Origin: Akkermansia muciniphila | Lineage (GTDB): Bacteria > Verrucomicrobiota > Verrucomicrobiia > Verrucomicrobiales > Verrucomicrobiaceae | Length of the DNA stretch: 64,000 nucleotides | NCBI GenBank assembly: GCA_945882215.1 | Contig: CAMCWM010000005.1 | Location: forward strand, 1 to 64,000 | Reading direction: 5' to 3' | Shown here: positions 31,828 to 35,811 of the stretch, one piece after another | Numbering within the stretch: the stretch's first letter is position 1 | Layout of the letters: each line of letters begins with the position of its first letter | Notes under the pieces: generated by a model | The model's database searches: none | Seen by the model: the letters and a program-made list of their open reading frames with translations, nothing else | What the model was told of the DNA's origin: nothing | Program-made: the position numbers and the translations under genes

Positions 31828-31890
31828 GGCACGAAACTAAAGCTAGAGGGCCTTTCAGCAACTCTAGGAGACGCTTTCCCATGACCCCGG

Positions 31891-32261
31891 ATTTCCAGAG
31901 CATGCCCTCGAAACCCCTTTCCCGGCCCTTCGGATTTTCAGAATGGCCTCCGAAAGGCTTTTTCGGTCGTTCGGATTTCCAGAGCTGCCGCCGAAACGTT
32001 TCCCCGGCGGTTCGGGTTTCCAGAGGTGCCGCCGAAAGGGTTTTTCGGTCGCTCGGATTTCCAGAGGAGCTGCCGAAAGGCTTATCCGGCCCCTCTGATT
32101 TCCAGAGCGACCGCCGAAGCGGTTTTTCGCGACTTCGGATTTCCAGAGAGGGCTCTGGAGCGGTTTCCCGGCAGTTCCGAAATTCTGGGGTGGCGGCGAA
32201 GGCGGTTTTCGTGGCTTGCGGTGGTCAGAGGACGTTTCTAGCAAGTTTCTTATGCCATTTG
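31891..32261. repeat. Degenerate 41-bp tandem repeat, about 8-9 units
   Basis: ATTTCCAGAG-type unit starts at 31891, 31934, 31975, 32016, 32057, 32098, 32139, 32180 and about 32221; spacing exactly 41 bp from the second unit on. Confidence 0.9.
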
Positions 32262-32365
32262 TTATTTGATCCTGAATGACATAGGTCATGGGCTGGAAAA
32301 TAGAATTGACGCTTGCGCTGCTTTTTCATTAAATCCCGCAATTCTCCAACCTGCACTCGTGAATC

Positions 32366-33151
32366 ATGGCTCGCTACGGCTACGCGTTTTTCGACAGTGG
32401 TGTGCGCTTTGATTCACCGGATGCTCAACCCAGCAGCTCCATGAGAAACCTGTCACGCTTCCTCGACAATCCCTTCGACGACAAGGACATCAGCGTCGCC
32501 GAGCTCGTCGCCTTCACCACGGATCATCTGGAACGGATGACCGCCAACAACAGCGGGGGCGAACTCTCCGCCCGCATCACCGCCACCAGCCAGGCGCTGA
32601 CGCAGGTCGAGGACTGCGTGACCGATGATCAGGGCAAACTCGGCATCCGCATGGCGCGCAAGCAGGCCAAGGACAACTTCCGCAAGACCTTGCCCGCCGC
32701 CGTGACGAAGATCGTCGCCGCCGTCATCGCCCACTATGGCGATGGTTCCCCTGAAGTGACGGAGTGCGTGCCGAGCGGCCGCAGCATCTTCAGCTCCTGC
32801 CGCGATGATCAGGTGGAGGTCCACCTGCAAACCCTCGTCACCGCCATCACCGCCCATCAGGCCGATCTCGGTGCGCCACTCGTCACCGCCGCCACGAATC
32901 TGAAAACGGCTTGGGTCACGATCTACACCGCCAGCGAATCCTCCACCGGCGGCAAGACCACCACTCAAGACGGCAAGAAGCTGGCCCGCGAAAACTTGCA
33001 GCTCATGCTCTACCTCAACCTCGTCAAGCTCATGGAGATGTTCCCCCGCCAGCCGGAGAAGCTGGCCCTCTACATGATGCAGCACCTGCTGGAGAATTCG
33101 TCGTCCGGAGAAGAGCCGGAGCCCCCTGCCCCCCCGCCGCCCGGCCCGTGA
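32366..33151 (+). CDS. Hypothetical protein, mostly helical, Pro-rich C-terminus
   Basis: 261 aa complete ORF (MARYGYAFFDSGVRFDSPDAQPSSSMRNLSRFLDNPF...); no family recognised. Confidence 0.6.
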   Translation: MARYGYAFFDSGVRFDSPDAQPSSSMRNLSRFLDNPFDDKDISVAELVAFTTDHLERMTANNSGGELSARITATSQALTQVEDCVTDDQGKLGIRMARKQAKDNFRKTLPAAVTKIVAAVIAHYGDGSPEVTECVPSGRSIFSSCRDDQVEVHLQTLVTAITAHQADLGAPLVTAATNLKTAWVTIYTASESSTGGKTTTQDGKKLARENLQLMLYLNLVKLMEMFPRQPEKLALYMMQHLLENSSSGEEPEPPAPPPPGP

Positions 33152-33162
33152 TGCGACAAAAC

Positions 33163-33187
33163 TGTGGGCGAATCAGATTCGCCCACA
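33163..33187. terminator. Odd-length perfect palindrome downstream of 32366..33151
   Basis: TGTGGGCGAATC-A-GATTCGCCCACA; no U-tract, so the terminator role is only a possibility. Confidence 0.45.
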
Positions 33188-33208
33188 ATTAAGTGTGGCT
33201 AAACAACG

Positions 33209-33807
33209 TTAGGCGTCAATCGGCCATGAGTCTCGACGAAACCACCTTCCAACTTCGGCTTGAGAGCACAGAAACCGACGAGGCAGCCGCAGAGTTGCTC
33301 CTGCAAATGGTGGGCGAGCATCTTCGGACGGCGGGCGCTCAGCATGATTATCTCGCCTCGCTCGCCGAACTGCCTGCCGCCTTGCGCCGCCTCTACTTGG
33401 TCCATACGCTCGATATCGGAGTGTCCATGGAGGGTTTCCACAGCTACTATGCTTGGGGGCTGCCTTATGACCAGCTGTATCCGGAAGTCGCGCTAGGATT
33501 CCGACTGCTCGACGAAATTGAACTCGAGCAAATCTTTCTTGAGGCTATTGCCTACTTGAAGACTGTCGGTCGGCCTGAAGCCTCGCGCATGTCACTGGTC
33601 ACTATTGACGCGGACACACGAGACGTTCACGGCAGGTATTTTGCCCGGCATAAGCATCTCGTCGACAGGATTGGTCGCTATTTACGCACCCATCAAGACA
33701 CGCTATTTAACTCGCATGAAGCCTAACCATGCGCTGCAGCGAACCCGGCCATCGCATCACTGTTGCAATCCACGCGTCCCGTGGGCCGGGTCGCTGAGCT
33801 TGGGTCG
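33209..33807 (+). mobile_element. Integron-type gene cassette 1
   Basis: Bounded by G^TTAGGC (33208-33214) and the G^TT of the attC at 33807; its own ends GCCTAAC (33721) and GTTAGGC (33208) are perfectly complementary. Confidence 0.75.
33226..33726 (+). CDS. Cassette-encoded DUF4375-like protein
   Basis: MSLDETTFQLRLESTETDEAAAELLLQMVGEHL...SMEGFHSYYAWGLPYDQLYPEVALGFRLLDEIELEQIFLEAI; family resemblance is weak. Confidence 0.65.
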   Translation: MSLDETTFQLRLESTETDEAAAELLLQMVGEHLRTAGAQHDYLASLAELPAALRRLYLVHTLDIGVSMEGFHSYYAWGLPYDQLYPEVALGFRLLDEIELEQIFLEAIAYLKTVGRPEASRMSLVTIDADTRDVHGRYFARHKHLVDRIGRYLRTHQDTLFNSHEA

Positions 33808-33813
33808 TTCGGC
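33721..33813 (+). repeat. attC-like integron recombination site
   Basis: GCCTAAC ... GTTCGGC, 93 bp; stem GCT(g)CAGCGA(a)CCCGGCC pairs with GGCCGGGTCGCTGAGC, leaving unpaired extrahelical bases as in attC sites. Confidence 0.85.
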
Positions 33814-34488
33814 CAATGAACCACACGATGGGTGATCGAGTTCCAAGTTCAGCTGAGTTCCATGCTGCCATATCTGACGGGTTCGCTTTTCTGACTGAGA
33901 ACCATGGCTTCAGAAAGGGCTTTTCGTCAGTGAATGACTTCGAGGTTTCCTTTGCCCATGATCGTTGCGTTATCCGTGTTTTCGGCGGCGGCTACGGACA
34001 GATGGCGTGGATGGAGGTTTCGTTCGATGGCCGCAATGTCCCTTACTATTTATTGCTCCCGTCGCCACGGACTCGCCATTTCCCGTCCACTGATTCTCCC
34101 CAGCTCGATGACTTACGGGAGATCTCAGCCCTGCTCCGAGATGAGTGTGGCGGTCTTTTGATCGATCCCGTTCGATTTGCGGAGAGTGCGTGGCAGGCAG
34201 AGCAAGATGCGGCAGATGCAGCTCAACGCCGGAGAGATGCGGACCCAAAGGGAACATTCTTCAGTCGTGCCGACGCACTTTGGAAGAACAAGAAATGGGC
34301 TGATCTTCACGAACATCTGACCTCTTCGTCCTATCCGCTCAGCGCTGCATGGACGGAGCGCCTAAGCCAAGCACATGAACACACACGCAATCAATGACGA
34401 GGCCGAACAAAGCGGATGCAGGCAACGGCTCGAAGGCTATCTGTCGTGTCAGCAACGTCTTGCGCTCGCCGTCGCCTGATCCGAGACG
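33808..34488 (+). mobile_element. Integron-type gene cassette 2
   Basis: Begins TTCGGC after the 33807 cut point and ends at G of 34488; its own ends GCCGAAC (34402) and GTTCGGC (33807) are perfectly complementary. Confidence 0.8.
33816..34397 (+). CDS. Cassette-encoded hypothetical protein (193 aa)
   Basis: Start within a few bases of the attC end and stop just before the next attC; MNHTMGDRVPSSAEFHAAISDGFAFLTENHGFRKGFSSVNDFEVSFAHDRCVIRVFGGGYGQMAWMEVSFDGR. Confidence 0.75.
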   Translation: MNHTMGDRVPSSAEFHAAISDGFAFLTENHGFRKGFSSVNDFEVSFAHDRCVIRVFGGGYGQMAWMEVSFDGRNVPYYLLLPSPRTRHFPSTDSPQLDDLREISALLRDECGGLLIDPVRFAESAWQAEQDAADAAQRRRDADPKGTFFSRADALWKNKKWADLHEHLTSSSYPLSAAWTERLSQAHEHTRNQ

Positions 34489-34494
34489 TTAGGC
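34402..34494 (+). repeat. attC-like integron recombination site
   Basis: GCCGAAC ... GTTAGGC, 93 bp; CGGAT(g)CAGGCaACGGC pairs with GCCGTCGCCTGATCCG with an extrahelical base. Confidence 0.88.
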
Positions 34495-34936
34495 TACAGT
34501 CACGTCATGCCGCCTTGGAAGCAAAAAGCAGAAGAGATGTTCCCGGAGTTGGTTTCCCGATTCGAGGACGCCGACACGCCGTATCTGCTTTGGTTTGAGT
34601 TGCGTGAGACTTTCGAGCGGGCATACGGGCAGTCGCCTCGCGACGAGTCTCTCATCAGGCGCATCTATCAGTATTCAGATTGGTGTGCTGACCAGCCACA
34701 AGGACAGACTGCGGAGGACGACCTGCTCACTTGCGCTGCCGTTTGTTTCTATGAGCACATTCCGCAGCATCCAGCGGCACGCGAGGACATGCCGCGTTGG
34801 TGGCGTGCTGAGGATTTGTCTGTCGAGCCGCATGTCATGCAGCATCATTTGTCCGACGAGCAGTTCAGCGAGCTGAAGAGATTCTTGGCCCAAGAGAGTC
34901 ATCGTTATGATGCGAGTCTCAGAACTGTAGTCTAAC
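34489..34936 (+). mobile_element. Integron-type gene cassette 3, right end truncated
   Basis: Leading TTAGGC at 34489; trailing half-site GTCTAAC at 34930-34936 overlaps the ORF stop, but no downstream GTTRRRY or stem partner is visible. Confidence 0.65.
34507..34935 (+). CDS. Cassette-encoded hypothetical protein (142 aa)
   Basis: MPPWKQKAEEMFPELVSRFEDADTPYLLWFELRETFERAYGQSPRDESLIRRIYQYSDWCADQPQG... Confidence 0.75.
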   Translation: MPPWKQKAEEMFPELVSRFEDADTPYLLWFELRETFERAYGQSPRDESLIRRIYQYSDWCADQPQGQTAEDDLLTCAAVCFYEHIPQHPAAREDMPRWWRAEDLSVEPHVMQHHLSDEQFSELKRFLAQESHRYDASLRTVV

Positions 34937-34977
34937 CTGGGAAATAGGGTCGGTGTGTAACTGTCTGAGAAAGGGCT

Positions 34978-35811
34978 TCATCCCACCTCCACCATCACCG
35001 GCCAGAGCGGGGTGTTCTTGCTGAGGAAGGCGAGGGCATGCTCGTCGTCGGTGACGACACCGCAGGCGAGTTCGATGCCGGGCGGGGTGAGCTTGCCGGC
35101 GAGGAGGCTGAGGTCGTTGTAGAAGTCGTTGTCCTCGCTGCGCAGCCGCAGGATGAGCCGCCACCGCCGCAGGTCGGGCTGGCCGGTGGCGGGATCGACG
35201 AGGACGAAGAGATAAACGGCGATGGGGACGGGCGTGCGGTCGCAGAAGCGGCGGATGCCGTCGCGGAAGTCGGGCGGGATGCTGTCTGCCTCAACGCCAT
35301 GCAGGGTGGTGGCCTCCTCTTTGCCATGCGACGGGCGGGAGTGGCGCATCTCGCCGGAGACGAGGTCGGCGATGGCCTCGGGCTTGAGCAGGAGGCGGTG
35401 TGTCATGCCGGCATTCAAGATCACATCGTGCTTCAACTGGGCCATCATGATGAAGAAGGCCTCACCGGGCATGGAGGCGACAGCCTGCGGGCCTTTGCCC
35501 TTCGCGTTCTTGGTGATGCAGTACTCGGCCACGGCCTCGCTGCTGAAGACCGGGATGAAAGTGCCGGTATCGTCCTGCACGAGAACAAAACGCGGCATGG
35601 GGGAGCCGTTGCTCAGCTCCATGGTGGCACCCGCCAGTTCTGGATGGTATTCGATGAGCGTGTGCAGCTCACTGTCCCATAGCGCGCGCATCATGCGCCC
35701 GTGCATGGCGGGATCGACGGCGGCTTTTTGCAGAAGGCGTTCCAGTGCGTTGCCCGGCTCCGGCTCGGGACGCCATTGAGGGCTGAATTCTCCGTCCATG
35801 TGGCGGATCAT
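34978..35811 (-). CDS. SseB-family-like protein
   Basis: NALERLLQKAAVDPAMHGRMMRALWDSELHTLIEYHPE... MPRFVLVQDDTGTFIPVFSSEAVAEYC resembles the SseB N-terminal domain. Confidence 0.6.
   Translation of the reverse strand: MIRHMDGEFSPQWRPEPEPGNALERLLQKAAVDPAMHGRMMRALWDSELHTLIEYHPELAGATMELSNGSPMPRFVLVQDDTGTFIPVFSSEAVAEYCITKNAKGKGPQAVASMPGEAFFIMMAQLKHDVILNAGMTHRLLLKPEAIADLVSGEMRHSRPSHGKEEATTLHGVEADSIPPDFRDGIRRFCDRTPVPIAVYLFVLVDPATGQPDLRRWRLILRLRSEDNDFYNDLSLLAGKLTPPGIELACGVVTDDEHALAFLSKNTPLWPVMVEVG

Follow-up and report, generated by a model that had tools for sequence, protein, structure and literature searches.

The locus described here lies within a window of 64,000 nucleotides, by which the whole stretch of DNA that was analysed is meant. 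Between a gene for a protein of 261 residues (p261) and an SseB-like gene on the opposite strand, it contains a 56-bp element homologous to integron attachment sites, two gene cassettes with one attC site each, and a third open reading frame, ORF3. The coordinates of all features are collated in Table 1.

Table 1. Features of the cassette array and its flanks (positions refer to the window).
Feature	Position	Strand	Remarks
41-bp tandem repeat array upstream of p261	31888-32148		TRF, 6.3 copies, 73% match; context, not part of the array
p261, left flanking gene	32366-33151	+	261 aa, predicted all-helical, no known family; stop abuts attI
attI class A (attI-A)	33155-33210	+	56-bp element; palindrome 33163-33187; predicted crossover G^TT at 33208
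R' box GTTAGGC, start of cassette 1	33208-33214	+	complementary to R'' GCCTAAC at 33721
Cassette 1 gene, DMP19-like	33226-33726	+	PF14300, E=9.5e-7, above gathering score; stop codon inside R''
attC site 1	33721-33813	+	R'' GCCTAAC 33721-33727, R' GTTCGGC 33807-33813; from fold, structure scan and homologs
Cassette 2 gene	33816-34397	+	193 aa; no family match
attC site 2	34402-34494	+	R'' GCCGAAC 34402-34408, R' GTTAGGC 34488-34494; member of a genus-wide attC repeat family
ORF3	34507-34935	+	142 aa; proteins 79% and 75% identical in G002 and G028
GTCTAAC, proposed half-site	34930-34936	+	in alignment with the G002 and G028 homologs: Val, stop and one base
Right flanking gene, SseB-like	34978-35811	-	PF07179; relatives in 10 of 56 genomes

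Among the cassette genes, only that of cassette 1 could be assigned to a family (DMP19-like). The cassette 2 gene gave no family match, p261 gave none above cut-off in Pfam, NCBIfam, PHROGs or PADLOC, profiles of defence systems gave no match, and neither did a tblastn search of plasmids with the three open reading frames. Promoter and terminator consensus scans of positions 32200-35100 returned none. As the first-pass annotation of this DNA had anticipated for mobile cassettes, a comparison with relatives revealed variable presence: Cassettes 1 and 2 were missing from all of the 55 genomes searched, in which no relative was found even at the protein level, so that among these genomes they are private to the source genome. 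Short fragments of the 3' end of the SseB-like gene were observed standing alone in three other genomes (G009:C49, G015:C174, and G017:C48).

The two 93-bp attC sites that had been proposed were recovered with exactly the same coordinates, and the matter was decided by homology with repeats of the same genus. Their boxes lie where they had been placed, but one box per site (GTTCGGC in site 1, GCCGAAC in site 2) departs by one base from the RYYYAAC/GTTRRRY consensus that had been claimed; a deviation of this kind is normal for the genus, as judged from the set of cassettes from relatives. Folding of the sites as single-stranded DNA gave, for both, the long imperfect stems with extrahelical bases that had been described (z=-2.6 for site 1 and -2.5 for site 2), each with single-base bulges. 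In a scan based on structure only (box pairs enclosing inverted arms), sites 1 and 2 ranked first and second in the window, and 6 of 100 shuffled windows yielded one site equally good. By itself, the attC structure is only moderately significant and is to be read as suggestive. The identity of the sites was settled by the recurrence of homologous copies throughout the genus: Site 2 has copies of 85-98% identity in most genomes of the genus, often in tandem with a spacing of 0.4-1 kb, and site 1 likewise has copies in relatives. On the strength of this homology both are real attC sites, and recombination by the integron integrase (IntI) is predicted at each of them. A scan with Rfam found tRNA only, and the pattern GTTRRRY-N10-RYYYAAC, a poor one, gave no match.

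A GTTAGGC had also been noted at the left end of the array; it is present, but it belongs with a conserved attI site that had been missed. The 56-bp element occurs upstream of a divergent, intact integron integrase gene (intI) in L034, L035, and L037, where the TIGR02249 matches are well above cut-off, and a homologous element is located between intI and the first cassette in these three loci and in L080 and L089. When 85,488 species genomes were scanned with a pattern for the element, 29 loci were obtained, all of them with titles that name Verrucomicrobia or one of its subordinate taxa (in one case Prosthecobacter), and the sequences of these 29 named loci diverge directly after AACAACGTT. 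To the right of G^TT, similarity is absent in nearly all of the listed pairs of attI-headed loci (docks). Because the element adjoins an intact intI in relatives and the sequences diverge right after AACAACGTT, the left end is, judged by homology, a bona fide attI, at which attI x attC recombination by IntI is predicted. The 11-bp palindrome of the attI is nearly invariant and may be a protein-binding palindrome; as to a selected fold, which is not required of an attI, covariation did not go beyond that of shuffles.

Exchange by an integron integrase would imply that the R' box with which a cassette begins and the R'' box with which it ends derive from one circular molecule, so that the two are expected to pair. 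This rule was applied to 42 cassettes, nearly all of them from relatives. Complementarity was perfect within 34 of the 42 cassettes, versus 8 of 42 when the two boxes belonged to one site; the observed mean pairing was reached by none of 2000 shuffles. Both cassettes of the window consist of perfect pairs (GTTAGGC with GCCTAAC in cassette 1, GTTCGGC with GCCGAAC in cassette 2). This test, which had not been proposed in the first-pass annotation, is considered the strongest. It also bears, together with the copies of attI that are linked to intI, on the reading of the locus as dispersed palindromic repeats or hairpins unrelated to integrons, or as an artefact of assembly. The assembly is a draft in which short repeats can be collapsed, as such a reading would have it, but the R'/R'' rule and the intI-linked copies speak against it, as does the occurrence of the same dock layout in G016 (six contigs) and in many independent assemblies; we regard it as scarcely credible.

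The certain number of cassettes is two. Three had been claimed in the first-pass annotation, and for cassettes 1 and 2 the claim stands, but ORF3 is without an attC and has its relatives in a non-cassette context. No attC was found after ORF3 in scans for boxes and for structure, and neither attC nor attI is present around the ORF3 homologs in G002 and G028. The GTCTAAC at its end, which had been taken for a half-site, is poor evidence of one: By alignment it probably represents largely the last codons of ORF3 (Val and stop), with GTC-TGA at this place in the G028 homolog, and the next gene lies only about 42 bp away. ORF3 may be a truncated third cassette or a resident gene.

No integron integrase was found above cut-off in the window by a search with TIGR02249, in agreement with what had been stated before. 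In the source assembly the best TIGR02249 match reached 77.7 bits versus a cut-off of 265, and a genus-type integrase gave only partial C-terminal matches in Xer-like recombinases of about 300-400 aa. An intI with the integron-specific domain, which defines a complete integron, was present neither in the window nor in the assembly. The latter is a draft (6.2 Mb, 391 contigs, 93% complete), and an intI could lie in its missing part; in G008 (30 contigs, 96%) and G011 (97%), too, there are several docks but an intact intI is absent. With two attC sites and no integron integrase nearby, the array falls under the definition of a CALIN used by IntegronFinder (two or more attC sites with intI absent from the vicinity; PMC9024848). 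The earlier CALIN-like reading was correct with regard to integrase-less cassettes but understates a locus that has a conserved attI. In a plain CALIN an integrase located elsewhere would have inserted the cassettes off-target, at an attG-like site that is not an attI, which is an accepted route of origin for CALINs (PMC8618304) and would go with the absence of intI; the left end of the array, however, is a 56-bp attI homolog and not a random GTT, and this origin is very improbable here.

The isolated, stray array that the earlier reading implied was not borne out either, the locus being one of several docks in the source genome. Four attI-A sites were found there (C5, the contig of the window, C226, C28, and C186), along with about three sites of a class B (C43, C297, and the weaker C272) that shares homology with the upstream sequence of integrases of a second lineage. 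In two of the class B sites (G000:C297, L093, and G000:C43, L091), inverted repeats were seen by eye before the crossover, the one in L093 being perfect over about 21 bp. A census of 56 genomes with a threshold of at least 60 bits gave 42 attI-A sites in 15 genomes of the genus. Three of the 42 are beside an intact integrase, as determined by contig position (G015:C540, G024:C437, G029:C1); G011:C89 is too near a contig end to judge. G024 has seven attI-A sites and one intact intI adjoining an attI-A. The docks are situated after RluA-like, ribonucleotide reductase-like, photolyase-like, p261, and other genes. A tract similar to the 41-bp repeats of the window was noticed near several other docks.

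Remnants of intI, comprising its first 18 to 144+ codons, were found beside several other attI copies. One MAG (SSF29; L061, L066, and L085) contains three attI copies of 98-99.6% identity, each cut differently inside intI. Because these copies are near-identical yet cut at different points, they suggest a recent spread of fragments that carry attI and differ in their left ends. A transposing unit with a common left end was rejected, the left ends being graded. The graded truncations beside sister sites would fit equally well with loss of intI in situ, that is, with the decay of a complete integron from which intI was deleted, leaving attI and cassettes as a fossil in which exchange has ended; loss of intI is reported as common in Xanthomonas (PMC12444791). 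Such a fossil is nevertheless unlikely: The window is devoid of an intI remnant, its attI is still near-consensus (84 bits), and orthologous docks without intI differ completely in their cassettes in several species, for which later exchange or many independent losses would be needed.

Two further observations concern the surroundings of attI. In three genomes, an element that we take to be IS91-like from the proteins it codes for (a tyrosine recombinase and a Y2-type transposase) sits exactly at the attI GTT (L072:1845-4560, L089:85-2712, and the end of L158/L086), and it may use attI as a landing site. Direct repeats of 43-96 bp, in which sequence upstream of attI reappears downstream, were seen in L121, L087, and L148 (RluA-AGE locus) and in L159, L160, and L164 (G011), as if attI modules had been inserted with a copy of the 3' end of the gene; direct repeats of the 3' end of the upstream gene were absent at the dock of the window.

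Orthologous docks were found downstream of a single-copy RluA-like gene: In G008, G017, G033, and G015, an attI followed by cassettes lies about 20 bp after the gene, and there is no intI. At this RluA-AGE locus (the neighbour of RluA, named from its sequence by eye, is presumably AGE epimerase-like), identity on the left is 84-93% as far as GTT, whereas the sequences to its right are unrelated. The dock is decayed in G021, the arrangement is another one in G032, and the site is empty in six other genomes, with 5 bp or less from RluA to the next gene. Dock C28 of the source genome and its ortholog G033:C6 (2.9 kb, 85%) likewise carry unrelated cassettes. The simplest account of these docks would be integrase-mediated exchange at sites that have no local integrase; the alternative is repeated, independent loss of intI. 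The dock of the window has only remote counterparts (p261 docks, 70-72% at the DNA level), apparently elsewhere in their genomes.

Relatives of p261 are located directly upstream of a class A attI in G026, G007, and G016, and directly upstream of a class B attI (broadly defined) in G016, G029, and G032. About half of 18 copies stand in this position before an attI of the two classes, and the association is recurrent. In L090, L097, L116, L118, L121, L124, and L128, the p261 relative was seen to end shortly before attI, at distances from a few bases to some tens. A role of p261 as a functional substitute for intI is not claimed, since the tree was without a clade-wise pattern and the AlphaFold model, which is of modest confidence (pLDDT 71), matched no fold in the PDB. 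A cassette formed by p261 and attI together was dismissed, as no GTT box lies just before p261.

The locus is thus probably an integron without an intI gene, composed of a conserved attI, two attC cassettes, and then ORF3, with the docks most likely loaded from elsewhere. Judging from the precision of the crossover and from the R'/R'' rule, an integron integrase acting at G^TT would have linked the cassettes with one another and with attI. Loading in trans appears most likely because genomes of the genus have this attI class at several chromosomal loci, with intI lacking at nearly all of them; docks of this kind would receive their cassettes from an integrase that is encoded elsewhere in the cell or is intermittently present. 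That unrelated cassettes start at precisely the same base of scattered docks suggests that a single integrase can act on many docks far apart. The broader proposal of a distributed integron, in which attI sites are stable chromosomal docks at many loci, persist without a local integrase and are loaded by one trans-acting or intermittently acquired IntI, is put forward tentatively, with a little less than an even chance of being right.

The usual description of an integron is that of a single attI adjacent to its own intI. In the genomes studied here the platform seems to be split into many docks and at most one integrase of that class. The RluA-AGE locus, empty and differently filled in sister species, makes the loading of attI in trans directly testable and offers a possible way for cassettes to come to lie beside host genes. 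Because attI detection by IntegronFinder 2 is limited to class 1 (PMC9024848), such docks would either escape notice or be recorded as stray CALINs, and those with fewer than two attC sites would be missed. Integrons and CALINs of Verrucomicrobiota are listed in a review (PMC8618304). A literature search in a limited library returned no description of genomes with several attI docks that lack intI, an absence that is not proof of novelty.

The array resembles CALINs (PMC9024848) in its two attC sites, the lack of a nearby intI, and a mostly unknown cargo, and differs from them in that its left end is a bona fide attI. Among published precedents, the nearest that was found is a CALIN with its own attI in one Shewanella prophage (PMC9892861). 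That case concerns one phage genome with the integrase next door, whereas the docks described here are chromosomal, occupy several loci per genome across the genus, and are found in several genomes without an intact integrase. The sedentary integrons and CALINs of Xanthomonas are similar in that intI is often truncated or lost and CALINs occur at recurrent chromosomal loci; they derive from one ancestral intI locus at ilvD, and attI at multiple loci is not reported in the available part of that account (PMC12444791). In the delta-attI cassettes of mobile integrons (PMC12901181), attI is likewise separated from intI, but there it serves as a recombination site of resistance cassettes inside arrays, whereas here it heads the array.
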